Shown piece after piece: positions 4,010 to 48,744 of a DNA stretch of 64,000 nucleotides; the first letter of the stretch is position 1; the number at the start of each line of letters is the position of its first letter. Origin of the DNA: Bacillota bacterium (lineage in GTDB: Bacteria > Bacillota > Dehalobacteriia > UBA4068 > UBA4997); contig JAFQHN010000026.1 in NCBI GenBank assembly GCA_017397935.1, positions 1 to 64,000 of the forward strand, written 5' to 3'. The notes beneath the pieces were generated by a model. It searched no databases. It saw only the letters and a program-made list of their open reading frames with translations, and had not been told where the DNA came from. A program made the translations under genes and the position numbers.

Positions 4010-4906
4010 ATGCGGAGTTTTTCGGCGATTGACAAGGCTTCAATTCTGGTGGAGGCCCTGCCCTATATTAAAAAATTCCACGGCAAAACGGTGGTTATTA
4101 AATACGGCGGCAACGCTATGATCAACGAGGAACTGAAAGAGGCTGTCTTGAAAGACATCGTGCTGATGCAGCTGGTGGGTATGCGGCCGGTGGTTGTCCA
4201 CGGCGGCGGCCCCGACATCAATGATATGCTGGATAAAATGAAGATCGAATCGGAGTTTATCAACGGCCAGCGCGTGACGGATGCAGACGCTATGCAGGTG
4301 GTGGAGATGGTGCTGACGGGTAAGGTAAACAGCAGCATCGTAAAATATCTTAACCAGGACGGCGGCGAGGCGGTGGGCCTTTCCGGTGCGGACGCCAATC
4401 TGCTGGTGGCACACAAAAAACGCACTACGGTGACCGCAGAAGACGGCACCGAGCATGAGGTTGACCTTGGCATGGTGGGCGAGGTGGAAAGCGTTAATGT
4501 GGATCTGCTGAATTCTCTGCTGGACCAGGGCTATATCCCCGTAATTTCGCCGGTGGCCATCGGCGCCAGGGGAGAGAGCTATAATGTGAATGCCGATTTG
4601 GCTGCCGGTGCGGTGGCGGCGGCGCTGAAAGCCGAAAAGCTGGTGCTGCTGACCGATGTTGAGGGCCTGTACCGTGATTATAAGGACAAGACCTCGCTGA
4701 TTTCCGTGCTGCCGGTGCGGCTGGTGGAGGGCCTGAAAGCCGAGGGCGTTATTGCCGGCGGTATGATCCCCAAAATCGATTGCTGTGTTCATGCCGTTAA
4801 ACAGGGCGTGGGCAGCGTGCATATTCTGGACGGCCGGGTGCTGCATTGTATCCTGTTGGAGGTTTTCACCCGCGAGGGTATCGGCACCATGGTGGTTAAT
4901 AAGTAA
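4010..4906 (+). CDS. argB: Acetylglutamate kinase
   Basis: 298 residues, normal length. It phosphorylates N-acetylglutamate with ATP, the committed and usually arginine-inhibited step. Amino-acid-kinase motifs are clear: VVIKYGGNAM for phosphate binding near residue 27, VVHGGGPDIN for substrate binding near residue 62, and VLLTDVEGLY plus GGMIPKI in the C-terminal ATP-binding half. The N-terminal helix (roughly residues 1-20) is of the kind associated with hexameric, arginine-sensitive enzymes, though that is inference. It has a GGGAGAT ribosome-binding site and lies 45 bp behind argJ. Confidence 0.96.
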   Translation: MRSFSAIDKASILVEALPYIKKFHGKTVVIKYGGNAMINEELKEAVLKDIVLMQLVGMRPVVVHGGGPDINDMLDKMKIESEFINGQRVTDADAMQVVEMVLTGKVNSSIVKYLNQDGGEAVGLSGADANLLVAHKKRTTVTAEDGTEHEVDLGMVGEVESVNVDLLNSLLDQGYIPVISPVAIGARGESYNVNADLAAGAVAAALKAEKLVLLTDVEGLYRDYKDKTSLISVLPVRLVEGLKAEGVIAGGMIPKIDCCVHAVKQGVGSVHILDGRVLHCILLEVFTREGIGTMVVNK

Positions 4907-4924
4907 ATTATAATAAGTAAATTA
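4897..4924. repeat. Perfect 14-bp tandem duplication across the argB stop codon
   Basis: TAATAAGTAAATTA is repeated at 4897-4910 and 4911-4924. The first copy contains the argB stop codon (4904-4906), and the second lies in the argB-argD spacer. Same unit length as the duplications before argJ, purM and the carboxyltransferase gene. Confidence 0.9.
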
Positions 4925-4954
4925 AAAATTTGATAAGACGAAAGGTCTGATAAT

Positions 4955-6145
4955 ATGAACAATGCGGAGATTAAGGCCAAAGGTGAAAAATACTGTATGA
5001 ATGTCTTTAACCGCCTGCCCATTGCCATGGTGCGCGGTGAAGGCTCTTATGTTTTCGATGCCGACGGCAACAAATATCTGGATTTTGTGGGCGGTATTGC
5101 CGTAAACGCCTTGGGGCACGCTCATCCTGCGGTGGCGCAGGCCATTGCCCAACAGGCAGCCACTCTTATCCACGCTTCCAATTATTATTGGCTGGAACCG
5201 CAGGTGCGGCTGGCCGAATTGCTGGTGGAAAATTCCGATTTCGATAAGGTTTTCTTTGGCAACAGCGGTGCCGAGGCCAACGAGGGTGCGGTAAAGCTGG
5301 CACGCAAATATGCCATTATGCAGGGACATCCTGAGCGCAAAGAGGTCATCACCATGAAGAACTCTTTCCACGGGCGCACTCTGCTGACGCTGACCGCTAC
5401 CGGTCAGGACAAAATGCACAAGGGTTTTGAGCCGCTGGCCCCCGGTTTTGTCTATGCCCAGTACAACAATCTGGCCGCGGTAGAGGCTGCGTTATCCGAT
5501 GAAACCTGCGCCATTATGCTGGAACCCGTGCAGGGTGAGGGCGGCGTTTATCCGGCAGAGCCTGCTTTTCTGGCGGCGCTGCGTAAAATTTGCGATGAGC
5601 GTGATATTCTGCTGATTTTTGATGAGGTACAGACGGGTATCGGCCGCACGGGCAAGCTGTTTGCTTATCAGCACGGAGATGTTAAGCCCGATATTATTAC
5701 GCTGGCCAAGGCGCTGGGCGGCGGCGCTCCCATCGGCGCTTTTATGGCCACCGATAAGGTGGCGGCGGCCTTTAACCCCGGTGATCACGGCTCCACTTTT
5801 GGCGGCAATCCGTTGGTTTGTGCGGCCGGCGTGGCGGTTATGGAGTATATGCTGGCTGAGGATCTGCCGGGCAAGGCGCTGGCCACCGGCGAATACTTAA
5901 AGGCCAAATTTGCCGGGATGATCGACAAATACCCCTTCCTGCTGGAAGTCCGCGGCCAAGGCTTGCTGCTGGGTTTGCAGCTGGCCATCCCCGGTGCGGA
6001 TATTGTGAAGAAGTGTCTGGAAAAAGGTCTGCTTATCAACTGTACCGCCGGCACGGTGCTGCGTTTTATTCCGCCGCTTAACATCAGCCGGGCTGAGGCG
6101 GACGAATTTTTGACAATTTTGGAAAGTGTTTTCCGGGAGGTATAG
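4955..6145 (+). CDS. argD: Acetylornithine aminotransferase
   Basis: 396 residues, a class-III PLP aminotransferase. It converts N-acetylglutamate semialdehyde to N-acetylornithine with glutamate as donor and may double in lysine synthesis. Visible features: the FFGNSGAEANEGA phosphate-binding segment near residue 95, FDEVQTGIGRTG with the PLP-ring aspartate, and TLAKALGGGAPIGAF with the Schiff-base lysine near residue 250. It is followed only 2 bp later by argF, so the two are likely translationally coupled. Confidence 0.95.
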   Translation: MNNAEIKAKGEKYCMNVFNRLPIAMVRGEGSYVFDADGNKYLDFVGGIAVNALGHAHPAVAQAIAQQAATLIHASNYYWLEPQVRLAELLVENSDFDKVFFGNSGAEANEGAVKLARKYAIMQGHPERKEVITMKNSFHGRTLLTLTATGQDKMHKGFEPLAPGFVYAQYNNLAAVEAALSDETCAIMLEPVQGEGGVYPAEPAFLAALRKICDERDILLIFDEVQTGIGRTGKLFAYQHGDVKPDIITLAKALGGGAPIGAFMATDKVAAAFNPGDHGSTFGGNPLVCAAGVAVMEYMLAEDLPGKALATGEYLKAKFAGMIDKYPFLLEVRGQGLLLGLQLAIPGADIVKKCLEKGLLINCTAGTVLRFIPPLNISRAEADEFLTILESVFREV

Positions 6146-6147
6146 AT

Positions 6148-7110
6148 ATGACTGAATTGATGACTTTGAAGAAGGATTACGCCGGGCGTGATTTCCTCTC
6201 GCTGCTGGATTATTCCACCGAGGATTTGCAGTATTTTTTGCAGGTGGCGGATTATTTGAAGGCTGAGCATAAGGCCGGCCGCCCCACCCCGTACTTGCAG
6301 GGCAAAACCATGGGCCTGATTTTTGAGAAAAGCTCTACCCGCACCAGAGTTTCCTTTGAGACCGGTATTTATTATCTGGGCGGCCAGGGATTGTTTTTGT
6401 CCTCCAATGATTTGCAGATTGGCCGCGGTGAGCCGATCAAGGATACTGCCCGTGTGCTTTCGCGCTTCCTTAACGGCATGATGATTCGCACATTCAGCCA
6501 TGATATTGTGACCGAGCTGGCCGAATATGCCGATATTCCCGTTATCAACGGACTGACTGATTTGCTGCACCCCTGCCAGGTGCTGGCCGATTTGCAGACC
6601 ATCCGAGAGCATAAGGGTGAACTGGCCGGCTTGAAGATGGTTTTTGTGGGTGACGGCAACAACATGGCTCATTCGATTATGAACGGCGGTGCCCGCATGG
6701 GTATGCACGTGGTTTGCGCCTGCCCCGAAGGCTACCTGCCCGACCCGGAAATTGTGGCCGCAGCCAAAGCCGCAGCCGAGCTTACCGGCGGCAGCGTTGA
6801 GGTTATGCAAGACCCGCTGATTGCCTGCCAAGATGCCGATGTTATCTACACCGACGTTTGGGCATCTATGGGCCAGGAGGGTGAAAAGGCCGAGCGTGAG
6901 GCCGTTTTTGCCGGTGTTTATCAGGTGAATGACGCCGTGATGAGCGTGGCCAAGCCCGACGCCATGGTGCTGCATTGTCTGCCTGCCCACCGTGGTGAGG
7001 AAATTACCGAGGAGGTTTTTGAGAGCCACCCCGAAATTTTTGATGAGGCCGAAAACCGCCTGTATGCTCAGATGGCAGTAATGGCTTTGCTGCTGCAAGA
7101 CGCCGAATAA
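6148..7110 (+). CDS. argF: Ornithine carbamoyltransferase
   Basis: 320 residues. It joins carbamoyl phosphate and ornithine to citrulline. Carbamoyl-phosphate-binding STRTR is at about residue 56, HPCQ at about 133, and the ornithine loop HCLPAHRGEE is near the C-terminus. It starts 2 bp behind argD with GGGAGG inside the end of argD. Its last codons and stop fall in a small GCCG-loop-CGGC hairpin followed by ATTTTT (7102-7121), a weak terminator candidate. Confidence 0.96.
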   Translation: MTELMTLKKDYAGRDFLSLLDYSTEDLQYFLQVADYLKAEHKAGRPTPYLQGKTMGLIFEKSSTRTRVSFETGIYYLGGQGLFLSSNDLQIGRGEPIKDTARVLSRFLNGMMIRTFSHDIVTELAEYADIPVINGLTDLLHPCQVLADLQTIREHKGELAGLKMVFVGDGNNMAHSIMNGGARMGMHVVCACPEGYLPDPEIVAAAKAAAELTGGSVEVMQDPLIACQDADVIYTDVWASMGQEGEKAEREAVFAGVYQVNDAVMSVAKPDAMVLHCLPAHRGEEITEEVFESHPEIFDEAENRLYAQMAVMALLLQDAE

Positions 7111-7272
7111 ACGGCATTTTTCGCAAATAATCAACTTAATTTTACAAAATATTGCGCTCTCAGCTTGCAGAGTGGGCGCAAGTGGTGTAAAATTAAATGT
7201 TAAGGATATTATTAACGCTATAAAAATTTTTAAGAATATAACATAATGTAATTTTTAAGGAGAGATGTTAAA

Positions 7273-35834: not shown

Positions 35835-37256
35835 ATGGGTGGATTTTTTGGTGCAGTATCCAGCACTAACTGCAAATATGATGTGTTTTTTGGCACGGAC
35901 TACAATTCTCATTTGGCTACCAAAACCGGTGGTATGGTCTTTTATGACAAGGAGAAGGGGTATCATCGCCAGATCCATAGCATTGAAAGTACGCCGTTTC
36001 GCACCAAATTTGAAAGAGATTTGGAGACGATGGACGGCACGGTTGGCCTTGGCTGTATTTCCGATTCTGATCCGCAGCCGCTGTTGGTACGCAGCCACCT
36101 GGGCCTTTTTGCCGTGGCGACTGTCGGCAAGATCAACAATGAGGAGGAGCTGGTGGAGAAAACCTTTGCCAATACGGGCAACCATTTTATGGCCATGTCC
36201 TCCGGTAAGGTCAACTCTACCGAGCTGGTTGCCAACCTGATCAGCAAATGTGATAATGTTGTTGACGGTATCCGCTATGCCCAGGAGGTGATTGACGGCT
36301 CCTGCACCATCCTTATGATGAACTCCGATTCTATCATTGTGGCGCGTGATAAGCTGGGCCGCCTGCCGGTGGAGATCGGCAAGAAGGATACGGGTTTTTG
36401 TGCCTGCATAGAATCCTTTGCCTTCCAGAAATTGGGGTACAGCTGGCATTATAATATGGGCCCGGGTGAAATCATCAAAATGACTGCCGACGGCATTGAG
36501 CAGTTATCCAAGCCCGGCGATAAAATGAGGGTTTGCGCCTTTATGTGGACGTATTACGGCTATCCGAACTCCAAGTATGAGGGAGTGAATGTGGAGGTAA
36601 TGCGCTGCAAAAACGGTGAGATTATGGCACGGGATGAGGCGGAACACGGCGGTATCCCCGATGTGGATTATGTTGCCGGTGTTCCGGATTCCGGTCTGCC
36701 GCACGCCATTGGCTATTCCAATGCCTCCGGTAAGCCTTTTGCCCGCCCGTTTATCAAATATACGCCTACCTGGGCACGCTCTTTTACCCCTTCTAATCAG
36801 GAAATGCGCAATCTGGTGGCGGAGATGAAGCAGATTCCGGTTCCGGAAATGATTGAGGGCAAGAAGCTGCTGTTGGTGGACGATTCTATCGTGCGTGGTA
36901 CGCAGCTGCGTGAAACGGTGGATTTTCTGTATGAATCCGGCGCCAAAGAGGTTCATATGCGTTCTGCGTGCCCGCCGATTATGTATAACTGTAAGTATCT
37001 GAACTTCTCGCGCAGTAATTCGGAGATGGAGCTGCTGGCGCGGAGAATTATCCATGAGCAGGAAGGCGAGGAGGGCAAGGCTCATATTGCCGAATACGCC
37101 GATGCCAGAACGGAGAGAGGCCAATGCCTGCTGAAAACCATTTGTGAGCAGATGGGCCTTGACTCTCTGGGGTATCAAAGCCTGGACGGTATGCTGGAAG
37201 CGATTGGCTTGGACCGTGATAAGGTTTGCACCTATTGCTGGACGGGTGAAGAATAA
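35835..37256 (+). CDS. PurF-like amidophosphoribosyltransferase lacking the N-terminal catalytic cysteine
   Basis: 473 residues. The phosphoribosyltransferase domain is intact, with the PRPP loop LLVDDSIVRGTQL near residue 350. The N-terminal Ntn-glutaminase-like domain begins MGGFFGAVSS where PurF has a propeptide and then CGVFGI: the nucleophilic Cys is Gly and the start gives no propeptide. Glutamine hydrolysis is therefore not expected. This short-start PurF-like clade is, to my knowledge, found in several anaerobes next to pur genes; ammonia use or a different role are both open. ATG 35835 follows AGGA at 10 nt; TTG 35826 would not supply a cysteine either. Clustered with purC. Confidence 0.82.
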   Translation: MGGFFGAVSSTNCKYDVFFGTDYNSHLATKTGGMVFYDKEKGYHRQIHSIESTPFRTKFERDLETMDGTVGLGCISDSDPQPLLVRSHLGLFAVATVGKINNEEELVEKTFANTGNHFMAMSSGKVNSTELVANLISKCDNVVDGIRYAQEVIDGSCTILMMNSDSIIVARDKLGRLPVEIGKKDTGFCACIESFAFQKLGYSWHYNMGPGEIIKMTADGIEQLSKPGDKMRVCAFMWTYYGYPNSKYEGVNVEVMRCKNGEIMARDEAEHGGIPDVDYVAGVPDSGLPHAIGYSNASGKPFARPFIKYTPTWARSFTPSNQEMRNLVAEMKQIPVPEMIEGKKLLLVDDSIVRGTQLRETVDFLYESGAKEVHMRSACPPIMYNCKYLNFSRSNSEMELLARRIIHEQEGEEGKAHIAEYADARTERGQCLLKTICEQMGLDSLGYQSLDGMLEAIGLDRDKVCTYCWTGEE

Positions 37257-37320: not shown

Positions 37321-37383
37321 GTATTATATTGACCGGATAATATATGGAAGATACGGAAGGATACGGCAAAATACGGTAAAAAA

Positions 37384-37430
37384 CAGCACGGAAATGTGGA
37401 GAAATATCTCTGCTATGTCCGTGCTTTTTT
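37384..37430 (+). terminator. Second terminator downstream of the purF-like gene
   Basis: AGCACGGA (37384-37391) pairs with TCCGTGCT (37417-37424), then a T-run. Just before it, 37351-37380 holds three 10-bp ATACGG repeats. Confidence 0.75.
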
Positions 37431-37449
37431 AGCGGCGGGCAGCACAATA

Positions 37450-37563
37450 ACACCCTCTGTTCAGATTTTTTTGGAAATCATGGGGAGGGTGTGTTTTCGT
37501 ATGCTCAAAAATCGGTCGGACCGTGGGTGGTGATAGAAAAGTATAACATAATACGAATTATGT
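37450..37563. promoter_or_regulatory. Regulatory spacer before the surface-fibre operon
   Basis: The 37257-37676 spacer has no supported gene. Besides the two terminators it holds an 8-bp inverted repeat ACACCCTC/GAGGGTGT (37450-37457 and 37485-37492) with a T4 run, and a dyad ACATAAT-ACGA-ATTATGT (37546-37563) that could be an operator. No good -35/-10 pair or known riboswitch was recognised. Confidence 0.4.
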
Positions 37564-37676
37564 CACAAAAAGCTGCGATAAACCCGACATGGCAAGATCA
37601 TAATCGCGGCTGTGGTGGAGGTATATATAACCGGCAGAGATTTTTGGTAATCGGAATGAGAGTGATGCATAAGATT

Positions 37677-38237
37677 ATGAGCAAGACCATAAAAAGAGTA
37701 TGGGAACATATCACAGCTGTTTTGGTGGCAATTATTGTGGTGCTGGCGATTCTGCTGGCCGGCGTGCGGCTGGTGGGCTTGCAGCCTATGCAGGTGCTTT
37801 CCGGTTCTATGGAGCCTGTCTATCCCGTGGGCAGTTTGATATATGTGAAAGCGGTGGATTACACCAAGCTGGCGGCCGGCGATGTAATTACCTTTATGCT
37901 GGATGAGGACACCCTGGCCACACACCGCATCGTAGAGGTGGTGCCGGATGAGGAAGCCCCGGCCGTTTTGCGTTATCGTACCAAGGGTGATGCGAACGAT
38001 GCCGAGGACGGCTCTCTGGTCCACTATAAAAATGTGGTGGGGACGCCGGTGTTCTCCATGCCGCAGTTGGGTTACTTGGCGAACTATATCCAAAATCCGC
38101 CCGGTACATATATTGCGGTTTCGGTTGGTGCGGTTTTGCTGCTGCTGGTGCTGCTGCCCGACCTGTTTGGCGGTAATGATGAGAAGGCGGCGAAGAAAAA
38201 GCGGGATGAGGCTGAGGAGCCCGGAAATTCTGAGTGA
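37677..38237 (+). CDS. SipW-type signal peptidase I
   Basis: 186 residues from ATG 37677 (ATG 37656 and 37665 are also possible). One N-terminal membrane span (about residues 10-35), then LSGSMEPVYPVGS with the catalytic Ser, and DTLATHRIVEV with a His where ordinary bacterial enzymes have Lys, the mark of ER/SipW-type peptidases; TKGDANDAEDGSLV follows. A second membrane span ends the protein (about 143-163). SipW removes the special signal peptides of TasA-like fibre proteins; five such proteins follow on the same strand, so they are its likely substrates. Confidence 0.92.
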   Translation: MSKTIKRVWEHITAVLVAIIVVLAILLAGVRLVGLQPMQVLSGSMEPVYPVGSLIYVKAVDYTKLAAGDVITFMLDEDTLATHRIVEVVPDEEAPAVLRYRTKGDANDAEDGSLVHYKNVVGTPVFSMPQLGYLANYIQNPPGTYIAVSVGAVLLLLVLLPDLFGGNDEKAAKKKRDEAEEPGNSE

Positions 38238-38285
38238 GGGTAAGGTTGTATAGCCTGCCATATAAAAATTTTAAGGAGGTTTGAG

Positions 38286-38957
38286 ATGAAAACAAAAAAT
38301 AAGGTGCTGCTGCTGATGATGTGTGCCGTTGTGCTGGTGGCCGGCTCGATATTCGGAACGCTGGCTTACCTGGCGGATAACGATGCGGTTACCAATACAT
38401 TTACCGTCGGGCAGGTGCACATGAAGCTGGATGAGGCAAAGGTTGAGCCTGACGGAGCTTATGTGACCGACAAGAGCAACCGTGTCACCGAAAACGAGTA
38501 TCATCTTATCCCCGGCCACACTTATATCAAGGACCCGACCGTGCATATCAGCGATGACAGCGAGGACTGCTATCTTTTCGTGAAGGTGGAGAACAGCATC
38601 GAGGATATTGAGACAGACGAAGAAGGCAGGACGATTGCAAGCCAGATGGAGCGTTTGAATTGGGCGGCGGTTGAGGGCGTGGATAATGTGTATGTGCTGG
38701 CTAAGGGTGGCGCTGATAAATATGCGGTTTCCGGGGGTGCTGATGTCGTGGTTTTCGAGAGCTTTACCATTGACGGCGAGACTGTTGATAACGATAAAAT
38801 TGCGGAATATGACACCATGCAGCATGAAACGGTGATCAGGGTAACGGCCTATGCTGTGCAGGCGGCCGGTTTTGAAAATCAGACACCAAGTGAGATTTGG
38901 GGGGCTGCCTTTGGTGCTGATAACGGTGCTGATAACGGCGGCAAGTCCCTCAACTGA
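38286..38957 (+). CDS. TasA/camelysin-like exported protein A
   Basis: 223 residues. The SipW-dependent type of signal: basic MKTKNK, a hydrophobic stretch, then the cleavage region FGTLAYLADNDAVTNTFTVG. The mature part is predicted as a beta-rich fold with family features: HLIPGHTYIKDPTVHIS, SEDCYLFVKVEN and VIRVTAYAVQAAGF. An unstructured GADNGADNGGK tail ends it. AAGGAGG site 9 nt before ATG. Likely a fibre or surface subunit; not assigned to major or minor. Confidence 0.85.
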   Translation: MKTKNKVLLLMMCAVVLVAGSIFGTLAYLADNDAVTNTFTVGQVHMKLDEAKVEPDGAYVTDKSNRVTENEYHLIPGHTYIKDPTVHISDDSEDCYLFVKVENSIEDIETDEEGRTIASQMERLNWAAVEGVDNVYVLAKGGADKYAVSGGADVVVFESFTIDGETVDNDKIAEYDTMQHETVIRVTAYAVQAAGFENQTPSEIWGAAFGADNGADNGGKSLN

Positions 38958-39055
38958 TAAATATTTGATTTCATCAGATGCTGAGCCTTTGTGTTCCTCC
39001 ATCTGCTGAAATATACGGCAATTCTGTAAATCTTTGAAGAAAGGAGGAACGCAAA

Positions 39056-39682
39056 ATGAAGAAAAAAGTGATAGCTCTGGCACTTGGCTGTGCTGTGACG
39101 CTTGGTTGTGCCATCGGCGGTACCTTGGCCTGGCTGACTGATAGTACGAATGAGGTGCAGAATGTGTTTACCACCAGCGATATTACTGTTGCGTTGGCCG
39201 AAACAACCGGCGATGATTACAGGATGATCCCCGGCTGGACGATTGACAAGGACCCTGTGGTCACGGTAAAGGCAGGCTCGGAGGATTGCTGGGTGTTTAT
39301 CGAGGTGGTGGAAAGCGGCGGTGAGGTGACTGTGGACGGCACGGCTTACAGCTTCGATGACTTTATCGCTTATCAAATCGACGAAAACAACTGGGAGCAG
39401 CTGCGGGACGGTGCGCAAAACCCGGTGCCCGGTGTCTATGTTGGCAAGGCCCCCTGCAAGGACATCAAAGTTGACCGTGCGATGAAGGTGCTGCTGAACA
39501 ATCAGGTAACGGTTGATGAAGCTGTGACCAAGGAGATGATGAATGCCTTGACAGCTGACGATTATCCCACCCTGACCTTTAAGGCTTATGCTTCTCAGCT
39601 GATGAAGGACAACGAAACGGAGTTTGCGTCTTATGAGGCATGGCTTAATATCGCTGATCCCGGCGGTGCAGCCAATGCGTAA
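39056..39682 (+). CDS. TasA/camelysin-like exported protein B
   Basis: 208 residues. Signal region MKKKVIALALGCAVTLGC then IGGTLAWLTDSTNEVQNVFT. The mature part has YRMIPGWTIDKDPVVTV, SEDCWVFIEV and LTFKAYASQLM, the same order as protein A, so these two are closest to each other in plan. The two Cys in the signal do not make a proper lipobox. AAAGGAGG ribosome-binding site. Confidence 0.85.
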   Translation: MKKKVIALALGCAVTLGCAIGGTLAWLTDSTNEVQNVFTTSDITVALAETTGDDYRMIPGWTIDKDPVVTVKAGSEDCWVFIEVVESGGEVTVDGTAYSFDDFIAYQIDENNWEQLRDGAQNPVPGVYVGKAPCKDIKVDRAMKVLLNNQVTVDEAVTKEMMNALTADDYPTLTFKAYASQLMKDNETEFASYEAWLNIADPGGAANA

Positions 39683-39757
39683 TTTTAACCTTGTTTAACC
39701 AGTTCTGCTTATATAAAACATACTGCAAATTTTACAAAATGGAAGGGGTGCAAAACA

Positions 39758-40531
39758 ATGAAAAAGAAATTTTTATCCCTTACTCTCGCTGTCGGTCTGC
39801 TGGCCACCGCTGCCATCGGCGGTACCCTGGCATATTTTACTGATACCGATGCCCAGACGAACACCTTTACCACCGGCAACGTAGCCATTGACCTATGGGA
39901 AGATTTTGGCGACAACGACGGCCTGGAAAAACTGCTGCCTGCTACCGGTTCTGCTCAGGATGGTACCTTGAAGAACGGCATTGAGAAGGAAGTTTATGTT
40001 AAGAACACCGGCTCGGAGGATGCTTATGTCCGTGTGCATATTGCCATCCCCCGGATTTTGGACGACGGTGCAGATACCTTTAATGCTGCCGCCAATGTTC
40101 TGCATTTTAACTATGCCGAGGAGTCTGTTGGCGAGGGCAAGTGGGATTGGTCTAAGGCGGCTGACGATAACAAGTATGTCGGCGATTGGAACTACTATAC
40201 CACGCAGATTGGTGACATCTGGTATAACGTTTATGTGGTGACCCATGCCGGCAAGCTGTCCGAGGGATATGCAACGGTGGATGCTATCAGCCAGGTTTAC
40301 TTGGATGCCCAGACTACCAATGAGGACATCACGGCTATCAAGCAGGTTTTGGGTGACGAATGGAAGATTGCTGTGGTGGCAGAAGGCACCCAGGCAGAAG
40401 GCTTTGATAATGCTTATGATGCGCTGAATACGGCTTTTGGTGTGCCCGGTGAGGATTATACTGTTGATTTCAGCAATCAGATTGCCGAAAACGAGACCTG
40501 GCTTGATACTGTGTCTTCTCAGAACAAGTGA
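39758..40531 (+). CDS. TasA/camelysin-like exported protein C
   Basis: 257 residues, the longest of the set and closest to TasA. Signal MKKKFLSLTLAVGLLATAAI, then GGTLAYFTDTDAQTNTFTTG. KEVYVKNTGSEDAYVRVHIAIP and WYNVYVVTHAGKLSEG are the recognisable core strands. Followed by two stem-loops (40560-40624) that separate it from protein D, an arrangement often found behind an abundant subunit. GGAAGGGG ribosome-binding site. Confidence 0.87.
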   Translation: MKKKFLSLTLAVGLLATAAIGGTLAYFTDTDAQTNTFTTGNVAIDLWEDFGDNDGLEKLLPATGSAQDGTLKNGIEKEVYVKNTGSEDAYVRVHIAIPRILDDGADTFNAAANVLHFNYAEESVGEGKWDWSKAADDNKYVGDWNYYTTQIGDIWYNVYVVTHAGKLSEGYATVDAISQVYLDAQTTNEDITAIKQVLGDEWKIAVVAEGTQAEGFDNAYDALNTAFGVPGEDYTVDFSNQIAENETWLDTVSSQNK

Positions 40532-40559
40532 TTACATATCAGCACATAATTTGCGGCTC

Positions 40560-40624
40560 CCCCTGCCTTGCGCAGGGGCGGGCCACATGAGGGTATCCGG
40601 CTTAATATGGGTACTTTCATGTGG
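40560..40624 (+). other. Two stem-loops between TasA-like genes C and D
   Basis: CCCCTGC/GCAGGGG (40560-40566 with 40572-40578) and CCACATGA/TCATGTGG (40583-40590 with 40617-40624). Neither has a T-run. They may protect the upstream mRNA or reduce downstream expression. Confidence 0.65.
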
Positions 40625-40684
40625 CTTGGTATCAGGCCATAAGCATACCTGCCGAAAGGAGCAAGGAAAAAGGAGCTGGGAAAA

Positions 40685-41353
40685 ATGAAGAAGAAAATTT
40701 TGGTCCTCGCTGCGGCTGCACTCTCGCTTACTGCCGCAGTTTCCGGGACATTGGCATATTTCACCGATACCGGCACTGCCCACAACATCATCACCACCGG
40801 CGGCGTGGATATTGTGCTGGTGGAGACTACCGATAAACAGGATGAGCATGGCAATTTTCTGCCTTTTAAGGATGTTGACGGCGTGATGCCCGGTGCGGCT
40901 GTTTCCAAAATCGTTCAGGTAGAAAACATCGGCAAAACTGACGCCTGGATCCGCGTTAAGGTTGAACCGAAAATTACGGATAAGGCCGGCAGGGAGCTGC
41001 CCCTGACCTTTGGTGCGGAGAATACGCCTGTAATTACTTGGGATGTGGGTGAGGATTGGCTGCAAGACGGTGATTACTATTATTACAAGCACGTTATGCG
41101 GTATGATGTCGAAAAGGCGGCCAACAACCTGACCACGCCGCTGTTCAGAGAGGTTAAATTCAACCGGCTGATGGGTAATGAGTACCAAAACTGCCGGGTT
41201 GAAATCAAGGTTACTGCTCAGGCTGCCCAGTTCAAAAACAATGACCCCAGAGAGACGGATGAAGAACTGTCGGCCGGGTTGGCGGCCCAAATCAAAGGCT
41301 GGCCCGCAGATGATAAAGTTAAAGAGCAACCGGAGACCGAAGCTGACGAATGA
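40685..41353 (+). CDS. TasA/camelysin-like exported protein D
   Basis: 222 residues. Signal MKKKILVLAAAALSLTAAV, then SGTLAYFTDTGTAHNIITTG. The mature core has VSKIVQVENIGKTDAWIRVKVEP and CRVEIKVTAQAAQF; the C-terminal 25 residues are acidic and likely disordered. AAAGGAGCTGGG site. It lies 19 bp before the large adhesin gene, so the two are probably translated from one message. Confidence 0.86.
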   Translation: MKKKILVLAAAALSLTAAVSGTLAYFTDTGTAHNIITTGGVDIVLVETTDKQDEHGNFLPFKDVDGVMPGAAVSKIVQVENIGKTDAWIRVKVEPKITDKAGRELPLTFGAENTPVITWDVGEDWLQDGDYYYYKHVMRYDVEKAANNLTTPLFREVKFNRLMGNEYQNCRVEIKVTAQAAQFKNNDPRETDEELSAGLAAQIKGWPADDKVKEQPETEADE

Positions 41354-41372
41354 GAAAGGAGATGTGTAAACC

Positions 41373-44300
41373 ATGAAAAAAAGCAGATTTCGTAAAATTG
41401 TGGCGATAATCCTTTGCATCTCCATGATATTCTCGATGAATGGCTGGGCTTACGCTGATGAAGAAAGTATCGTTGTAAGTGATATTGCTGTTTCTGCCGA
41501 TGAGGGTAATGGCACCGAAACGGAGGATGAAGCACCTGCTGACGGGGCTAATGGTGTTGAAACGAAGGATGAAGCACCTGCCGATGAGGGTAATGGTGCT
41601 GAATCGGAGGGTGGAACGCCTGCTGATGTGGATAATGGTGCTGAATCGGAGAGTGGAACGCCTGCTGATGTGGATAATGGCACCGAAACGGAGGATGAAG
41701 CACCTGCTGACGGGGCTAATGGTGTTGAAACGAAGGATGAAGCACCTGCTGACGGGGCTAATGGTGTTGAAACGAAGGATGAAGCACCTGCCGATGAGGG
41801 TAATGGTGCTGAAATGGAGGACGGAATGCCTGCCGATGAGAATATTGACGGCGGCAGTGCTGTCCTTGCTGAGGATGAGGCATTTACGCTGTGCCCTGAG
41901 TGCGGTATGGCCGGCATACACATGGTAAGCTGTCCTGGATACACTTGCCCTGAATGTGGCGGGGCAGAGAGCCATGCTGCCGATTGCCCGCAGAATATAC
42001 CTGCCGAGCCGGAGACTTCGGCGGCAGAAGTACTTTTGGGTGCGGCCAGCGTTGAGGAAATGTATATTGGTGTTTTGGCGCTTATGAATACCGCCCCGGA
42101 TGCTCTTATGGCGCTGACCGAGGAGGAAATAGCCGCCCTGCGTGCCCGCATCAATGAGCTTGACCCTGAGGGCGATGATGCCGATGCCATAGATTTGCTG
42201 GATACCCTGGCTTTTCTGCCCAACGGTGCGGAAGCTTCATTTTGTACTTGTGAGGCGGCCGAGGGTGAGGCGCATCGTTTTGGCTGTACGCTTTACGAGA
42301 AGCCGGAGATTCCCCGGTGTGATTGTCATTGGTGGACTAAATGGTTGGCCGATGATTTGCAGAAGCATGATGAGGACTGCGCTCTGCGCCTTTTCTGCGC
42401 CGAGGTTGTACGGGATATGTCGGTTGAGGAGCTGGCTAACGAACTTTGGAATGAACTGCCGTTGTTGGCCAAGAATTATCTTTGGGATAATCTGACCGCC
42501 GAGGAGCAGGCCGCTATGGCTGTATATGGCATTGGCGAGCCTGCTGATACGGCTGCTGCGGTGATAAATGCTGCCGATGTTTATGCTGATGAGGACTATA
42601 CACAGATAGAAAAATACAGCAGGGAGGCTCCCTTGGATGTGGAGACCTGCGGCGAGACGATTTATGTTACTGCCTCTGCCGAAGCGCAGGAAGTTTATTT
42701 TGCCCGTGCCGATGGTGCTGAATTTTCCACCGCGGATGCTGATAGTGCTCAGGTAACACCTGAGGACAAAATGGGGCTGCTGCATACCGATTATTACCGA
42801 AAAGCAACACTAACCCTTGCCCCCGGTTTGCAGGCAGGTGATACTGTATGTTTTACTGCTGAATGGCTGGATATTCATTGGGGGGCTTGGCCCGAAACAG
42901 TTATCAAAACCATAACTGTTAAGATTATCGCTCCTAAAACGGAGGCTCCTGTGGTGCCTGAGGTACAGGTGCCGGAGTGTGATTGCGGCGAGGGTGCTCC
43001 TGAAAATATTGCTTATCATGTTGACAGCTGTCCTCGTAAGGCATATATCAAAACATTGTTTGACGGCAAGGCTGCTGAGGAAATTTACGCCTTGTGGGAA
43101 AACTATGATGAAGCTGTTCAGACCGATCTGCTGAATATGCTGCAAGTGTGGGATAACGCCAAATATGAGGAACTGAAAAAGCTAATTGCCCAAATAGATA
43201 ATTCCAGCGGATTTGATATTGTATATGTCGAATATGCAGGTACTGCTGAGAACGGTATTGGGGCAAAAATTCTTGCTGCGGCAGGCTCTTTCCCTGATGG
43301 AACTACTGTATCTGTTGCTGATGCCGATGTATCCGATTCTGAGGTGGCATACGTTGTTGATGATGAAATTTTGGGAATTGTTGCTGTTGACATCAGCTTT
43401 GGCGGGACAGAACCCTTGAATGACGTTATGGTTTCTTTGGATATTCCCGCAGAAGAAGTACCGGCTGCCGCAAACAAAGTAATCATCGTCCATATGGGTA
43501 GCATTGGGCCTGAAATAGTTGCTGCCAAATATCTGAATAGTGCAGATTCTGGGGAAACGATTGCCTTTAAGACCAATAGTTTTTCCAGTTATGCGGCTGT
43601 ATTTGTGAATGGCAAGTACAATGCTCAGAAAATGAGTAGTATTTTGCAGGACAATGATACATATAAAATCTCTACATTTAATGTAGACTTGTTTGACTAT
43701 GATCCTGTCAAAATGAATAACGCTCTTAATGCGGCAACGACTGATGGAAACGGTTTTCACCTGACAGGCTACGGTATAGCCGGTATGGGATCCAATACCG
43801 GCATTAACAACTCGGCATCAGAGTATGCTAAACAGGGAATTTTGCAAAATAACTTATCAGATGGTTTTCCTGTAATTAACTTTTTGAATGGAACTGATGC
43901 CGGTGCCGCTACGGGTAAAATTCTGTTTGCTGATTCTTATTCTGTTGAGGGCAAAACTATATATAACGATATTCCGTTTGAGTTTGTTTATAATAAAAAT
44001 ACTGGCTATTACGAATACAAAAGTTCGGCAAACCATGCTCAGCTAAACGATGCTGAGAACAAAATTGAATTGTATGCAGATACTCTGTCCACCGAGAACA
44101 ATTATGTCGCAACCCTGGATTTAAGCACAGCAAACGGAACAAGTGATTATAGTTCTCATAATGAAAGCGTGAGTGGCTTTGATGGTATTGTGTCTGATAC
44201 AAATTCTAATAAAAGGCTTGATCCGTATGTTTTGTTTACTGTGGATAATGTGGCAGCAAATGATGTGGGACAGATTTACATTAAAGCAAAAGTTCCTGCA

Positions 44301-46136
44301 AATGTTGGTGCCAACCAGTTCCAATTATTCTTTACAACAGATAAGGCAACCAGATGGGATGAAGCAAAGTCTTTTGGTAATACGACATACAGCAAGGAGA
44401 TTCCGTATACGGCCAATGGCGATTGGATTGAGTTTGTAATTGATACAAGCGAAAATAATAATTGGCAGGATACGATTACAGCGGTGCGTGTTGACCTTTT
44501 TGACAGTAACAAAGGTGATGTGGATACAACGGGCTCTTATTCTGTCGAAATTGATGAAATCCGATTCATTAAAAAGGATTACGATGCTTACGCAACACGT
44601 GGCGGTTTCTATCCCTTCTCTGAGATTCAGGATTCGTATCCCGGCAATAACACTGGATTTGAGTATAATGCTTGGGAAAGCCTGTTTACGGATGACAGTC
44701 TTACTATGGCACGTGCAAGCCGTTCTATTTTTAATCCTGCACCAGTTTCCGAGGCACTCAGATATGAAGAATTGGCCTATGGTATGGTTATGGAATTTGA
44801 CTTCTATATGCCTGTGAATAGAGAGGAGAAAGATTTAACTTATTATTTTAATGGTGATGACGACCTATGGGTGTTCGTTGATAATCAGCTTGTACTGGAT
44901 ATTGGCGGCGGTCACGGTGCTATCACCGGTATTGTTGATTTTTCACAAGGGACAACAAGAGTAGAGAATGCTGTGACGGTTACCGGTTATAACAGTGGTG
45001 CAGACGGCACCCCGGCAGCGCAGGAAGAAACTATTGAAGAAGCATTGTTGAATCCCGGCAAGCATACTATGAAAATATTTTATCTGGAACGCGGTGGTTC
45101 GGTTTCTAATTGCTTTATGAAATTCAATCTGCCGCAAACACCGGAAGCTGCTGTAACAGTCAGTAAAGATGTAAGGATGAGCGATGGCAGCAAAACGGAT
45201 TTGGCGGATAAGCCGTTTAAGTTCCAAATTACAACAGAATATAACGGTACCAAAATTGATGGTGAAATTTATCCTGATGGCAAAAATTTGACATATACTC
45301 TTATCGGCGATAATTTGGTTGACGATCAAAAAGAACCTGTCAGCTTTCTTACCCGCAGCACAGATGAAGATGGCTGTTTCTACTTATTAGATGGCCAATA
45401 TGCAATGTTTGATATTCAGGAAAATTACAAAGTAACCATTGTTGAAATTGCTGATAGCGATGGAGATGAAAATGTTTTTGATGAATACGGCAATATTTAT
45501 GCAGGCAAAAAGAAATTTGAATATGATGAAGCCCAAAGTGGTGTTTTAATTAACAATAAAGAACCTGAAAAAAAGGACGATTATACCAATTTAACTGTTG
45601 AAGATGGCTCGTTGATATATGCATTTACCAATGTCTATAAGGAACTCAACAAAGCCAACCTGACTATTATTAAAGAAGTTGATACCAAAAATCCGGAACA
45701 GGATTTTTATTTCCAACTTCAAGATACTGCTGCTAATACAGTTTGGGATATTATTATTCCTGCCAGCGATATTATTGTTGGTAAGAATTTCATTACTATT
45801 GCAGATTTACCTGTGGGAGAGTATAAAGTTACTGAAAAAACTGATTGGTCTTGGCGATATAAGTTTAAGGAAGTAACTGCTGAGCAGGATAATTCTGCTG
45901 CCCAAGAAGGCACGAGTATTACTTTTGATTTTGCCTATGTTGGAGAAACTGTTACCTTTACCAACGTCCGTGATACTGACATCTGGATAGACGGCAATAC
46001 CCGGTGCCGGAACATCTTTAACAGCACAGACGGTTCCGGGCAGCAGACCCCTGAGCTGCCTGATAAAGCGTCGGTACCTGCTCAATTAGCTGTCCTCCGT
46101 GAGGAAGATAGCCCGACGCTGATTGCCATAGTCTGA
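41373..46136 (+). CDS. Giant secreted adhesin with 14-residue repeats, CCHC motifs and a fibro-slime (PA14-like) domain
   Basis: 1587 residues. Ordinary Sec signal peptide (residues 1-28, cleavage after WAYA). Residues 42-153: eight 14-residue acidic repeats of the form ADGANGVETKDEAP. Residues 174-660: five short C-x(1-2)-C...H...C motifs (such as CPECGMAGIHMVSC and CDCGEGAPENIAYHVDSC) between helical segments. Around residues 1110-1260: a fibro-slime domain with YYFNGDDDLWVFVDNQLVL and DIGGGHGAITG. Then two Cna-B/pilin-like beta domains (about 1265-1380 and 1415-1530), ending in an FTNVRDTD segment. No LPxTG-like signal or membrane anchor is visible, so it is secreted or held by other components. 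AAAGGAG ribosome-binding site. Probable adhesin; ligand unknown. Confidence 0.88.
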   Translation: MKKSRFRKIVAIILCISMIFSMNGWAYADEESIVVSDIAVSADEGNGTETEDEAPADGANGVETKDEAPADEGNGAESEGGTPADVDNGAESESGTPADVDNGTETEDEAPADGANGVETKDEAPADGANGVETKDEAPADEGNGAEMEDGMPADENIDGGSAVLAEDEAFTLCPECGMAGIHMVSCPGYTCPECGGAESHAADCPQNIPAEPETSAAEVLLGAASVEEMYIGVLALMNTAPDALMALTEEEIAALRARINELDPEGDDADAIDLLDTLAFLPNGAEASFCTCEAAEGEAHRFGCTLYEKPEIPRCDCHWWTKWLADDLQKHDEDCALRLFCAEVVRDMSVEELANELWNELPLLAKNYLWDNLTAEEQAAMAVYGIGEPADTAAAVINAADVYADEDYTQIEKYSREAPLDVETCGETIYVTASAEAQEVYFARADGAEFSTADADSAQVTPEDKMGLLHTDYYRKATLTLAPGLQAGDTVCFTAEWLDIHWGAWPETVIKTITVKIIAPKTEAPVVPEVQVPECDCGEGAPENIAYHVDSCPRKAYIKTLFDGKAAEEIYALWENYDEAVQTDLLNMLQVWDNAKYEELKKLIAQIDNSSGFDIVYVEYAGTAENGIGAKILAAAGSFPDGTTVSVADADVSDSEVAYVVDDEILGIVAVDISFGGTEPLNDVMVSLDIPAEEVPAAANKVIIVHMGSIGPEIVAAKYLNSADSGETIAFKTNSFSSYAAVFVNGKYNAQKMSSILQDNDTYKISTFNVDLFDYDPVKMNNALNAATTDGNGFHLTGYGIAGMGSNTGINNSASEYAKQGILQNNLSDGFPVINFLNGTDAGAATGKILFADSYSVEGKTIYNDIPFEFVYNKNTGYYEYKSSANHAQLNDAENKIELYADTLSTENNYVATLDLSTANGTSDYSSHNESVSGFDGIVSDTNSNKRLDPYVLFTVDNVAANDVGQIYIKAKVPANVGANQFQLFFTTDKATRWDEAKSFGNTTYSKEIPYTANGDWIEFVIDTSENNNWQDTITAVRVDLFDSNKGDVDTTGSYSVEIDEIRFIKKDYDAYATRGGFYPFSEIQDSYPGNNTGFEYNAWESLFTDDSLTMARASRSIFNPAPVSEALRYEELAYGMVMEFDFYMPVNREEKDLTYYFNGDDDLWVFVDNQLVLDIGGGHGAITGIVDFSQGTTRVENAVTVTGYNSGADGTPAAQEETIEEALLNPGKHTMKIFYLERGGSVSNCFMKFNLPQTPEAAVTVSKDVRMSDGSKTDLADKPFKFQITTEYNGTKIDGEIYPDGKNLTYTLIGDNLVDDQKEPVSFLTRSTDEDGCFYLLDGQYAMFDIQENYKVTIVEIADSDGDENVFDEYGNIYAGKKKFEYDEAQSGVLINNKEPEKKDDYTNLTVEDGSLIYAFTNVYKELNKANLTIIKEVDTKNPEQDFYFQLQDTAANTVWDIIIPASDIIVGKNFITIADLPVGEYKVTEKTDWSWRYKFKEVTAEQDNSAAQEGTSITFDFAYVGETVTFTNVRDTDIWIDGNTRCRNIFNSTDGSGQQTPELPDKASVPAQLAVLREEDSPTLIAIV
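41496..41831 (+). repeat. Eight 42-bp tandem repeats within the adhesin gene
   Basis: In-frame 42-bp units encoding 14 residues. Units 6 and 7 are nearly identical at DNA level, pointing to recent expansion. Copy number likely varies between strains. Confidence 0.95.
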
Positions 46137-46154
46137 GAAAGGAGGCCAAAGCCA

Positions 46155-46745
46155 ATGAAAATGCAACATAAATCCATAATCCTGCTGGTCTCCATGGCCT
46201 TGGTGTTCGGTATCGGTATTGTCGGTACGCTGACCTATATGGCAGACAGTACCGGCGATGTCGCAAACATCTTTCAACCTGTCAGCGTTCCGCCTGAGGT
46301 TATTGAGGAGTTTGACGGCGATGTCAAAGAGAATGTTCAAATCCGCAACACGGGCAATATCGACGCTTATATCCGTGCGCAGATTGTTGCAAACTGGGTC
46401 AGTGTGGATGATGCCGATAATGTTATCGGCATTTACGGTGGCGCGGTGCCGGTGTTTGGTGAAGATTACAGCTATATTATTGGTGAAAAATGGACCGAAG
46501 GCTCTGACGGTTATTACTATTATAACAGCTCGGTTGCGGCCAATGACAGCACGGATAGTCTGTTGACCGAGGGCAAGGTTTTGAGCACGGCAACTGTTCC
46601 CAATGGTTGCAGGCTTTCCATCGAAATCCTTGCTCAGACTATTCAGGCCCGTCCGGATGAAGCTGTGGGGCAGGCTTGGAGCAGCGATAAGGTGATTGTA
46701 ACAGGCCAGGACGGGACTCTTTCCGTCAACACAAGAAGCAATTAA
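46155..46745 (+). CDS. TasA/camelysin-like exported protein E
   Basis: 196 residues. Signal MKMQHKSIILLVSMALVFGI, then VGTLTYMADSTGDVANIF, a variant of the SipW-type cleavage region (GTLTYMAD instead of GTLAYFTD). KENVQIRNTGNIDAYIRAQIV is the family core strand pair; CRLSIEILAQTIQARPDEA corresponds to the C-terminal strand. It differs most from the other four, and lies after the adhesin, so it may be an accessory or tip/base protein (inference). AAAGGAGG ribosome-binding site. Confidence 0.83.
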   Translation: MKMQHKSIILLVSMALVFGIGIVGTLTYMADSTGDVANIFQPVSVPPEVIEEFDGDVKENVQIRNTGNIDAYIRAQIVANWVSVDDADNVIGIYGGAVPVFGEDYSYIIGEKWTEGSDGYYYYNSSVAANDSTDSLLTEGKVLSTATVPNGCRLSIEILAQTIQARPDEAVGQAWSSDKVIVTGQDGTLSVNTRSN

Positions 46746-46760
46746 GGGAGGATGGCGACG

Positions 46761-48155
46761 ATGGTGACAAGGTTTACAATGAAGAAAATATTGCAGAGAC
46801 TCACCACCCTTCTGCTGGCCGCCGCACTTTGTATCGGTATGGCGAGCACAGCTTTGGCCGATACCACTACCATCACTTACAAAGGGAAAGCCGCAGGCGG
46901 CTTGGGTTTCTTGATTCCGACATCCGACTATACCAATGAATACACGGAAAGTGATTTGTTTGATAACTTTAAGAATGTTATGCCCGGTGATGAATTGCAG
47001 CAAACGGTAATTGTAAATAATCAATCCAACAGCTCTGTTAAGCTGTTTATGCGGGCTCAGGTGGATGAGCCGACTTATGACAGAGATTTGGCTGACGCCG
47101 AGGGAAAGCAGAGTGAAACTGCTGCCACTATGGCCGATTTTCTCTCCCGGCTTTCTATGAAGGTTTACAACGGTGACCGGCTTATCTATGGAGATACCGA
47201 AGCCGAGGACAACTGGGTGTCTGCCGACCAGCTTGACGGTTTGAGAGAAAATAAATTGCTTGGTAATATAGCGGCAAACCAGAGTATTGAGCTTACTGTT
47301 TATTTGCGGGTGCCGGGCGAGCTGGATAATAGCTATGCCAACCGTGTCGGCGAGGTCGATTGGGTGTTCAGCATCGAGGAAACAGGTGGCGGTGATAACC
47401 CCGGTGGCGGTGGAGATGATGATACTGTGTCCCGTACTGTGTATAAGGTATGGCAGGATAGTGATGAGAGCAAACGGCCGGAAAGTATCACAGTTACCTT
47501 GGTCGGTACGGATAGGGAGACCGGCAGGGTGGTGGAAGAAAAAAACGCAACCCTTAATGCCGAAAACCAGTGGACCTGCTCCTGGACGGGGCTGGATAGT
47601 GTGTATCAATGGGACGTTAAGGAAATCAATGTTCCCGACGGCTATACTGCCGGCTATGAGCGCTCTCAATCCGGTCGTGTAATAACTATTATCAACAGTG
47701 ACGGAGGCGGCGGGAACCCCGGCGGCAGCACACCCGGCGGTGATACTCCCGGTACCGACACCCCCGACGGCCCGGTATTTACCGCTGACCTGACGGTGAT
47801 AAAAGCCTGGGATGACGATAACGCCACGAACCGCCCGAATACGGTTACCTTGCAGCTTTACAACGGAGCCGCCGCTGTTGATACCGTTACTCTCAGTGCG
47901 GCCGGCGGCTGGACTTATACCTGGGAGGATTTGGCAGCCGACGGCGAGTGGCGTGTCATCGAGGTGGATATTCCCGACGGCTATACGCCTGTTTACAGCA
48001 TGGCTGATGGGGTGATCACCATTACCAACACCGAAAGCCTGATCGATGCCGGTCAAATGAATTGGCCTGTACCGGTGCTGGGCGGCCTGGGCGTGCTGGT
48101 GCTGGTATCGGGCATTGTGTTGATGCGCAGGAAGAATGACCATGCGGCAGAATAA
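46761..48155 (+). CDS. Cna-B-domain surface protein with C-terminal sorting signal
   Basis: 464 residues. Classical Sec signal (cleavage about ALAD, residue 33). An N-terminal domain of about 175 residues has MPGDELQQTVIVNNQSNSSVKLF, resembling the TasA-type bead fold. Two Cna-B repeats follow (YKVWQDSDESKRPESITVTL and IKAWDDDNATNRPNTVTLQL), with Gly/Pro/Asp-rich linkers. The C-terminus is TESLIDAGQMNWPVPVLGG, a hydrophobic span and RRKNDH, which looks like the LIxTGQxNWPVP class of sorting signals. A sortase gene overlaps its end. ATG 46761 is chosen since AGGGAGG touches the earlier ATG 46752. Likely the wall-anchored base of the surface structure. Confidence 0.87.
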   Translation: MVTRFTMKKILQRLTTLLLAAALCIGMASTALADTTTITYKGKAAGGLGFLIPTSDYTNEYTESDLFDNFKNVMPGDELQQTVIVNNQSNSSVKLFMRAQVDEPTYDRDLADAEGKQSETAATMADFLSRLSMKVYNGDRLIYGDTEAEDNWVSADQLDGLRENKLLGNIAANQSIELTVYLRVPGELDNSYANRVGEVDWVFSIEETGGGDNPGGGGDDDTVSRTVYKVWQDSDESKRPESITVTLVGTDRETGRVVEEKNATLNAENQWTCSWTGLDSVYQWDVKEINVPDGYTAGYERSQSGRVITIINSDGGGGNPGGSTPGGDTPGTDTPDGPVFTADLTVIKAWDDDNATNRPNTVTLQLYNGAAAVDTVTLSAAGGWTYTWEDLAADGEWRVIEVDIPDGYTPVYSMADGVITITNTESLIDAGQMNWPVPVLGGLGVLVLVSGIVLMRRKNDHAAE

Positions 48156-48744
48156 AGCAGGGCTTGCCCTGATGATGTTGGGAGCAGCGCTGATAGCCTC
48201 GGCGCTGCTCCTTTTTGGCTGGAACAGGGCGGAGGATGAGAATGCAGGGCAGCAGGCCGCAATAATGCTGCAAAGGGTGCAGGAAACCATACCGGAAAAG
48301 AAGATGGAGCCTGCCAAACTGACGGTAACAGAAATTGGCGGCTATGAATACATCGGCTATGTATCAATACCCAGGCTGGAAGTGGAGCTGCCGGTGATGG
48401 CCGGGTGGGATTATGACCGCCTGAAAATCGCGCCCTGCCGTCATTTTGGTTCGCCGGAATCGGATGACCTGGTGATTGCGGCGCATAATTACAAGAATCA
48501 TTTTGGGCGTCTGGCCAGGCTGAAAGCGGAGGATGTGGTGCTTTTCAGCGATATGGAGGGCGGCAGCAGCACCTATGCTGTGCGCTCGGTAACACGGGTG
48601 GAGCCGACGGACATGGAAGCCGTGCAGAACAGCGGGTATGACCTGGTGCTTTACACCTGTGCTTTCAGCGGCGATCAGCGCATCATTGTGGGCTGCGAGC
48701 GATTGGCGGAGGACAAGACCGCACCGTCAGGCGGTGATGTTTAG
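48142..48744 (+). CDS. Sortase
   Basis: 200 residues. An N-terminal membrane span (about residues 7-25) with the catalytic domain outside. The catalytic His is in VIAAHNYKNHFG, the Cys in LVLYTCAFSGDQRIIVG, and Arg follows in the same strand. The class is uncertain (B- or D-like). It cleaves sorting signals and joins proteins to the cell wall or to each other. It overlaps the CnaB gene by 14 bp, which makes that protein its most likely substrate. ATG 48142 follows AGGAAGA; ATG 48136 is too close to the site. Confidence 0.9.
   Translation: MRQNKAGLALMMLGAALIASALLLFGWNRAEDENAGQQAAIMLQRVQETIPEKKMEPAKLTVTEIGGYEYIGYVSIPRLEVELPVMAGWDYDRLKIAPCRHFGSPESDDLVIAAHNYKNHFGRLARLKAEDVVLFSDMEGGSSTYAVRSVTRVEPTDMEAVQNSGYDLVLYTCAFSGDQRIIVGCERLAEDKTAPSGGDV

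Follow-up and report, generated by a model that had tools for sequence, protein, structure and literature searches.

This paper describes a surface-fiber cassette of a Bacillota bacterium, located at 37677-48744 within positions 1-64,000 of contig JAFQHN010000026.1 (assembly GCA_017397935.1); the whole of this 64,000-nucleotide stretch is referred to below as the window. An open reading frame (ORF) check combined with domain searches identified nine ORFs in the cassette, all intact and all on the + strand, in the order that an earlier note on the sequence had given: the signal peptidase gene sipW, genes for four TasA-like subunits (A1 to A4), a gene for a giant adhesin, the gene for a fifth subunit (A5), a gene for a CnaB protein with a sorting signal (the anchor), and an overlapping sortase gene. 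We consider it likely that the locus encodes a sortase-anchored TasA-type surface fiber, which is phase-variable in related copies. That note had overlooked the TasA-like domain of the anchor, the docking domain of the giant, a second copy of the locus, and a recombinase switch. It had also assigned a strong ribosome-binding site to every gene, which does not apply to sipW (4 of 6 positions matching, at 15 nt), while the site of A3 is moderate.

The first gene, sipW (37677..38237, +), encodes an archaeal/ER-type (Ser-His) signal peptidase that scored 94.5 bits with TIGR02228 (cut-off 51.85) and matched the SipW model with an E-value of 1.1e-32, yet below the Bacillus cut-off of that model. The dedicated peptidase described earlier, i.e., the cognate SipW peptidase expected for a TasA-type fiber, is thus present. 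All five proteins reported to carry SipW-type signals were recovered, all on the + strand: A1 (38286..38957), A2 (39056..39682), A3 (39758..40531), A4 (40685..41353), and A5 (46155..46745). TIGR04088 was over its cut-off for three of the five, including A1 and A3 (34.8 bits); A2 alone reached 18.3 against 19 bits, and 19.2 bits together with its frame neighbors. A3, A4, and A5 matched the BsaA matrix-protein family TIGR04090 (E 1.2e-7, 2.5e-12, and 1.1e-11, respectively), which was the only model that detected A5. This family matched 11 of 17 subunits (best E 3.1e-15), and its curated cut-off of 60 bits was reached by no subunit in the window, where the best score was 47.1 bits. In a maximum-likelihood tree of 31 subunits, five positional groups were found, requiring four changes of position, which is the possible minimum, against a mean of 19.3 after shuffling. 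Support was strong for slots 2 (clade 100/100) and 4 (100/99), moderate for slot 5 (94/86), and weak for slots 1 and 3. The subunits therefore diverged before the cassette spread, and the five probably differ in role. Their mature N-terminus is conserved where TasA carries its donor strand, and none of the subunit ORFs in the window has a sorting signal of its own.

The anchor gene (46752..48155, +), the start of which is better placed at 46761 than at 46752, encodes two Cna_B domains (E 3.5e-28), which are preceded by an N-terminal domain of approximately 175 residues (46857..47380, +). A structural model of this domain (predicted local distance difference test [pLDDT] 64.9; predicted template modeling score [pTM] 0.65) was compared with 350,542 PDB chains using Foldseek, and TasA (5of1) was the top match (probability 0.99, E 3.2e-3, TM 0.35), and the archaeal bundling pilus 7ueg, which is TasA-like, ranked seventh. 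Moreover, a profile of eleven anchors searched against all PDB sequences retrieved TasA alone (8aur, E 4.3e-4; 5of1, E 4.4e-4). Earlier searches of the PDB sequences with cassette-only alignments had given nothing convincing, and TasA surfaced with the wider anchor alignment. The domain is also related to the subunits, since hhalign of the anchor profile against the subunit profile gave a probability of 96.6% (E 4.8e-10) and the hidden Markov model (HMM) of the domain matched A4 subunits (E 5e-6 to 2.5e-3). The same HMM also detected two proteins of tandem TasA-like build with membrane tails, which are encoded in other SipW loci of Cuneatibacter (E 2.9e-18 and 1e-15), and in two Cuneatibacter loci an A4-like domain is fused to an anchor-type domain with a membrane tail. 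Two Cuneatibacter SipW loci without sortase (L057 and L058) contain a tandem TasA-like protein that ends in a membrane tail and is possibly a membrane-anchored counterpart of the anchor. The HMM had no match among the anchors of the sortase-pilus loci examined, the N-terminal domains of which look SpaA-like by inspection. Judged from profiles and models together, the N-terminal domain of the anchor is a TasA homologue that takes the place of the SpaA-like domain of ordinary sortase-pilus anchors, and the simplest reading is a domain swap in which a TasA-like domain was combined with the stalk and tail of a pilus anchor and with its sortase. The TasA relationship that had been proposed for the locus therefore stands by sequence, through the BsaA-family matches of A3 to A5 and the retrieval of TasA by the anchor profile. 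At the level of the subunit fold it is weak: the A3 model (pLDDT 69.8) is a beta sandwich for which the TasA fiber 8aur ranked 31st (E 0.059), and a wider subunit alignment profile retrieved no TasA from the PDB sequences.

The association of a TasA domain with a sorting signal recurs elsewhere. Through the BsaA family, five distant SipW loci were found in four other genomes, in which a TasA-domain protein adjoins TasA-like subunits; their anchors matched the domain with E-values of 1.7e-14 to 5.9e-7 and have tails such as MPKTGE, LPKTN, and LPQTGE. A sortase-like gene lies directly downstream in three of the five, and the one scanned (in L072) is a sortase by TIGR01076. The earlier suggestion that sortase anchors the TasA-like fibers is strengthened by the anchor architecture and by this recurrence, as far as gene sequences can tell.

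At its C-terminus the anchor has a putative sorting signal, as had been claimed, with a hydrophobic stretch and a positive tail, though its motif is LIDAG (48039..48053, +) and not LPXTG, and it scored 12.5 versus 15.9 with the LPXTG model. Five related cassette anchors read LI(D/Q/H)TG. LIxTG was rejected as a cassette-specific motif, as two sortase-pilus anchors read LIQTG and LIQSG. The sortase gene (48136..48744, +) overlaps the anchor gene by 20 nt, as previously noted, and encodes a sortase of the anchor type, with no class assigned (PF04203, E 2.9e-17; TIGR01076 over cut-off), that has the catalytic residues H117, C175, and R182. Outside the cassettes, its nearest relatives belong to sortase-pilus loci, where the neighboring CnaB anchors have tails exemplified by LPQTGQLWWPVP. 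Only two sortases are encoded in the host genome, which spans 1.59 Mb in 28 contigs and is 99.4% complete, both in cassettes of this kind; they therefore appear dedicated, and the genome has no separate pilin polymerase. A canonical sortase pilus is ruled out because neither a class C pilin polymerase nor an LPXTG backbone pilin is present among the nine genes.

The giant of 1587 residues (41373..46136, +), reported as a fibro-slime protein, is present with near-threshold support for that assignment: its head scored 43.2 against 45 bits with Fibro_Slime (TIGR02148, E 4e-11) and 18.2 against 24 bits with PA14 (PF07691, E 0.0022). It has an ordinary Sec signal, and a sorting signal is absent from the giants of all cassettes. 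Their heads vary, being PA14/fibro-slime-like in the window, composed of Listeria-Bacteroides repeats in the second copy on contig C4 of the same genome, and of the VWA type in Cuneatibacter and Hungatella. Much of the head in the window has a GC content of 33-45%, compared with 52% for the window, which is consistent with head exchange. All giants have in common a conserved, putative docking domain at the C-terminus, marked by the motifs WSWRY and W(L/I)(D/N)G followed by NIF (45615..46067, +, in the window), which was detected by HMM with E < 1e-40 and matched no other ORF below E 1e-4. The N-terminal part of the giant (41373-42500) contains short acidic tandem repeats and paired-cysteine motifs (CPECG..H..CP), similarly to the C4 copy. 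The giant may act as a tip adhesin.

The copy on C4 is complete and has the same gene order, and the best match there of every window gene is the gene at the same position. Identities between the two copies are 72% for sipW, 36% for A1, 49% for A2, 52% for A3, 48% for A4, 37% for A5, 54% for the CnaB protein, and 83% for the sortase. The short contig C2 of the same genome carries part of a third copy. The same gene order was found in Cuneatibacter caecimuris, Hungatella UBA5385, a contig of a metagenome-assembled genome named as 'Coriobacteriia', and the human-fecal contig MT835649, and a congener carries several partial or complete copies. Scattered, independent genes in related genomes had been named as grounds for refutation; instead, the order is kept across unrelated hosts, which rules out a chance or scattered gene cluster, and the second full copy in the genome together with the related copies elsewhere likewise indicates that the locus is not due to chance. 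The ratio of nonsynonymous to synonymous substitution was below one (dN < dS) in all pairwise comparisons, including those of the window with C4 and with the congener.

The cassette is rare in the host family, where 2 of 10 genomes carry it. Among 397 sampled genomes of the Cuneatibacter family, the best sortase matches came from the two carriers already identified, and those of the lesser matches that were opened had no cassette and were mostly sortase-pilus loci; the sortase profile yielded no additional cassette in 398 sampled genomes of the phylum. In viral contigs the window sortase had no relative, and the sortase profile gave one short match. A plasmid-borne cassette was rejected, since among the plasmid matches listed the CnaB protein was covered for at most 44%, over its CnaB region. 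The complete cassette of MT835649.1 (L077, 11581-19668) has no adjacent sortase, and its TasA-like anchor has a TPPTG tail and no CnaB domains; the contig was deposited as phage and looks bacterial. Two contigs (L002 and L003) that are 99.97% identical over 3449 bp carry the third sipW-A1-A2 and end before A3, probably at an assembly break in the repeated cassette. On the contig binned as Coriobacteriia (L008), the cassette lacks A3 and is truncated within A2 by the contig start; its presence in this bin may be due to transfer or to misbinning. AP2/HNH-like proteins repeatedly adjoin these sortase loci (L002:1133-1849; L018, reverse complement, 6167-7114; L061:10896-11711; L062, reverse complement, 4511-5494; L078:2747-3565), and the scanned part of the one on C2 had no Pfam match.

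Several copies are accompanied by elements resembling an invertible promoter. The order in Cuneatibacter is a tyrosine recombinase gene, the two halves of a perfect 18-bp inverted repeat 281 bp apart, and sipW; on C2 the inverted repeat is 25 bp. Near the left repeat in Cuneatibacter, C2, and contig C13 there is an extended promoter-like site, which inversion would turn toward sipW; taken singly, each of these sites had a probability of 1.2-2.6% in shuffled sequences. A recombinase with paired inverted sites around a promoter was thus found in L007 (Cuneatibacter caecimuris DSM 29486, segment 1307-1605), in L002, and in the relic on C13 (L018, 12800-14100), which kept the recombinase and both sites and lost the cassette, its flank passing directly into the final 51 bp of a sortase gene. 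A congener contig (L044, contig C190, 3593-6350) has two divergent, head-to-head cassettes around one Tn916-type integrase. The two sipW genes are preceded by a 24-bp inverted match, and a single promoter-like site faces one cassette only, which suggests either/or switching between the two. Inverted repeats were sought and not found beside the cassettes of Hungatella (L006) and the human-fecal contig (L077).

In the window, such an arrangement was not found. Between the upstream purine-pathway genes, which end at 37256, and sipW lies a recombinase fragment (37370..37432, +), the apparent remnant of the deleted switch enzyme, which aligns with the C13 recombinase gene in its 5' part at 85% over 65 bp. 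This 65-bp fragment is fused to the right half of the former invertible segment and its flank (37433..37603, +; aligned with the corresponding half of the intact C13 segment at 82% over 170 bp), which contains the single remaining recombination site ACATAATACGAATTATGT (37546..37563, no strand assigned), the sole zero-mismatch match in the window. As the recombinase, the left site, and the promoter half are gone, the switch is broken. No forward sigma-70-like promoter was found for the window copy, which is probably locked and, from its sequence, would show weak or no expression in the absence of upstream read-through.

This state makes it possible, if not the favored account, that the window copy is a silent archive that feeds sequence to expressed copies by recombination, with the working fiber made from the C4 copy, where a fixed promoter-like site (TTGCTA-17-TATATT) is present. 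The deleted switch, the missing promoter, and the altered sorting motif agree with such a role, but nine ORFs have remained intact over 11 kb and have dN < dS relative to C4 and the congener. An archive is compatible with a cassette encoding a sortase-anchored fiber, and both can hold together.

Less probable is a matrix polymer of TasA-like proteins that is released, as that of BsaA in Clostridium perfringens is, with the sortase serving only to fix the CnaB protein to the wall independently of the polymer. In C. perfringens, deletion of srtB altered neither BsaA polymers nor pellicles (PMC7395162), and the subunits described here have no sorting signal of their own. However, it is the wall-attached protein itself that bears a TasA-homologous domain, the pairing recurs in the distant loci, and two Cuneatibacter loci have an A4-like domain fused to an anchor-type domain and membrane tail. 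It is improbable that A1 to A5 stay unpolymerized and, once exported by SipW, act as small proteins or decoys at the surface, each binding a ligand of its own: their fold model is weakly TasA-like and they diverge strongly between copies (36-52% identity), but they occupy five ancient fixed slots, match the BsaA family, and conserve the donor-strand N-terminus.

Several observations weigh against a sortase-anchored, phase-variable TasA-type fiber. LIDAG has Ala where the Thr of the cleavage position is expected; the fold matches are weak (TM 0.28-0.35) and the models moderate (pLDDT 65-70); the srtB gene beside sipW-bsaA of C. perfringens is dispensable for BsaA polymers, which are mostly extracellular (PMC7395162); and the inverted orientation was seen in no assembly, each showing a single orientation, so that switching is inferred.

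A sortase-anchored fiber would be built as follows. SipW would cleave the special signal peptides of A1 to A5 and thereby expose their N-terminal strands, after which the five subunits may polymerize by donor-strand exchange as in TasA, each at its own position. The conserved C-terminal domain would hold the giant on the fiber, the tip being its most likely place, with the head of the giant binding a ligand. The CnaB protein would form the fiber base, its TasA-like domain pairing with a subunit and its two CnaB domains serving as a stalk, and the overlapping sortase would link its LIxTG-type tail to the wall. In related copies, the tyrosine recombinase would flip the promoter beside sipW and make the cassette phase-variable. 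Polymerization itself, the place of the giant, and expression of the window copy are the least certain elements.

The cassette resembles several known systems in part. TasA polymerizes by donor-strand exchange (PMC9674648). With the TapA-SipW-TasA system of Bacillus subtilis (PMC9674648), the cassette shares TasA-related subunits predicted to be processed by SipW, a conserved donor-strand N-terminus, and a dedicated signal peptidase in the operon; it differs by its five positional subunits, the giant, the TasA-domain anchor with a sorting signal, and the sortase, and no TapA is encoded among the nine genes. Fiber anchoring in B. subtilis is attributed to TapA in the literature consulted. The sipW-bsaABCRSD locus of C. 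perfringens likewise encodes SipW and a SipW-dependent BsaA-family protein, and a sortase gene adjoins sipW, whereas it has one BsaA, a two-component regulator, and a dispensable sortase, and the parts of its description that were consulted (PMC7395162) do not mention a five-subunit set or a giant. The TasA-CalY-CapP filaments of Bacillus cereus (PMC13082335) are heteropolymeric and SipW-dependent, as is proposed for the cassette, but they are described as sortase-independent and as attached to the wall by a disordered domain of CapP. In class C sortase pili of Bacillota (L034, L035, L037, L038, L060-L067), a related CnaB anchor has a tail of the form (L)(P/I)xTGxLxWP and lies beside a sortase of the same kind, whereas these pili have no SipW, an LPXTG backbone pilin with a class C polymerase, and a SpaA-like N-terminal domain in the anchor. 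Finally, the switch resembles recombinase-controlled invertible promoters of surface loci in its tyrosine recombinase, inverted sites approximately 280 bp apart, and outward promoter, and differs in serving a TasA/sortase cassette and, on one congener contig, in sharing integrase and promoter between two divergent cassettes. A search of open-access full texts, which leave out most subscription papers, yielded no description of the TasA/sortase combination or of an invertible promoter on such a locus. We tentatively propose, at somewhat less than even confidence, that such cassettes define a class of their own among Gram-positive surface appendages. In it, a TasA-type pilus of five subunits would carry a tip adhesin that can be exchanged and would be bound covalently to the wall via a sortase substrate with a TasA domain; site-specific recombination would switch it, including either/or switching between two divergent cassettes with a common invertible promoter.

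Taken together, this is a real, conserved, and modular cassette in which TasA-type fibers are probably tied to the wall by sortase. How TasA-type fibers are held on the cell is not well settled, and a protein combining a TasA domain with a sorting signal, present in cassette copies of several hosts and at five distant SipW loci, provides an answer that can be tested directly, namely covalent attachment by sortase. The cassette links two types of appendage that are usually treated apart and suggests a fixed five-subunit set with a swappable adhesin. Moreover, it points to phase-variable display of TasA-type fibers in gut bacteria.

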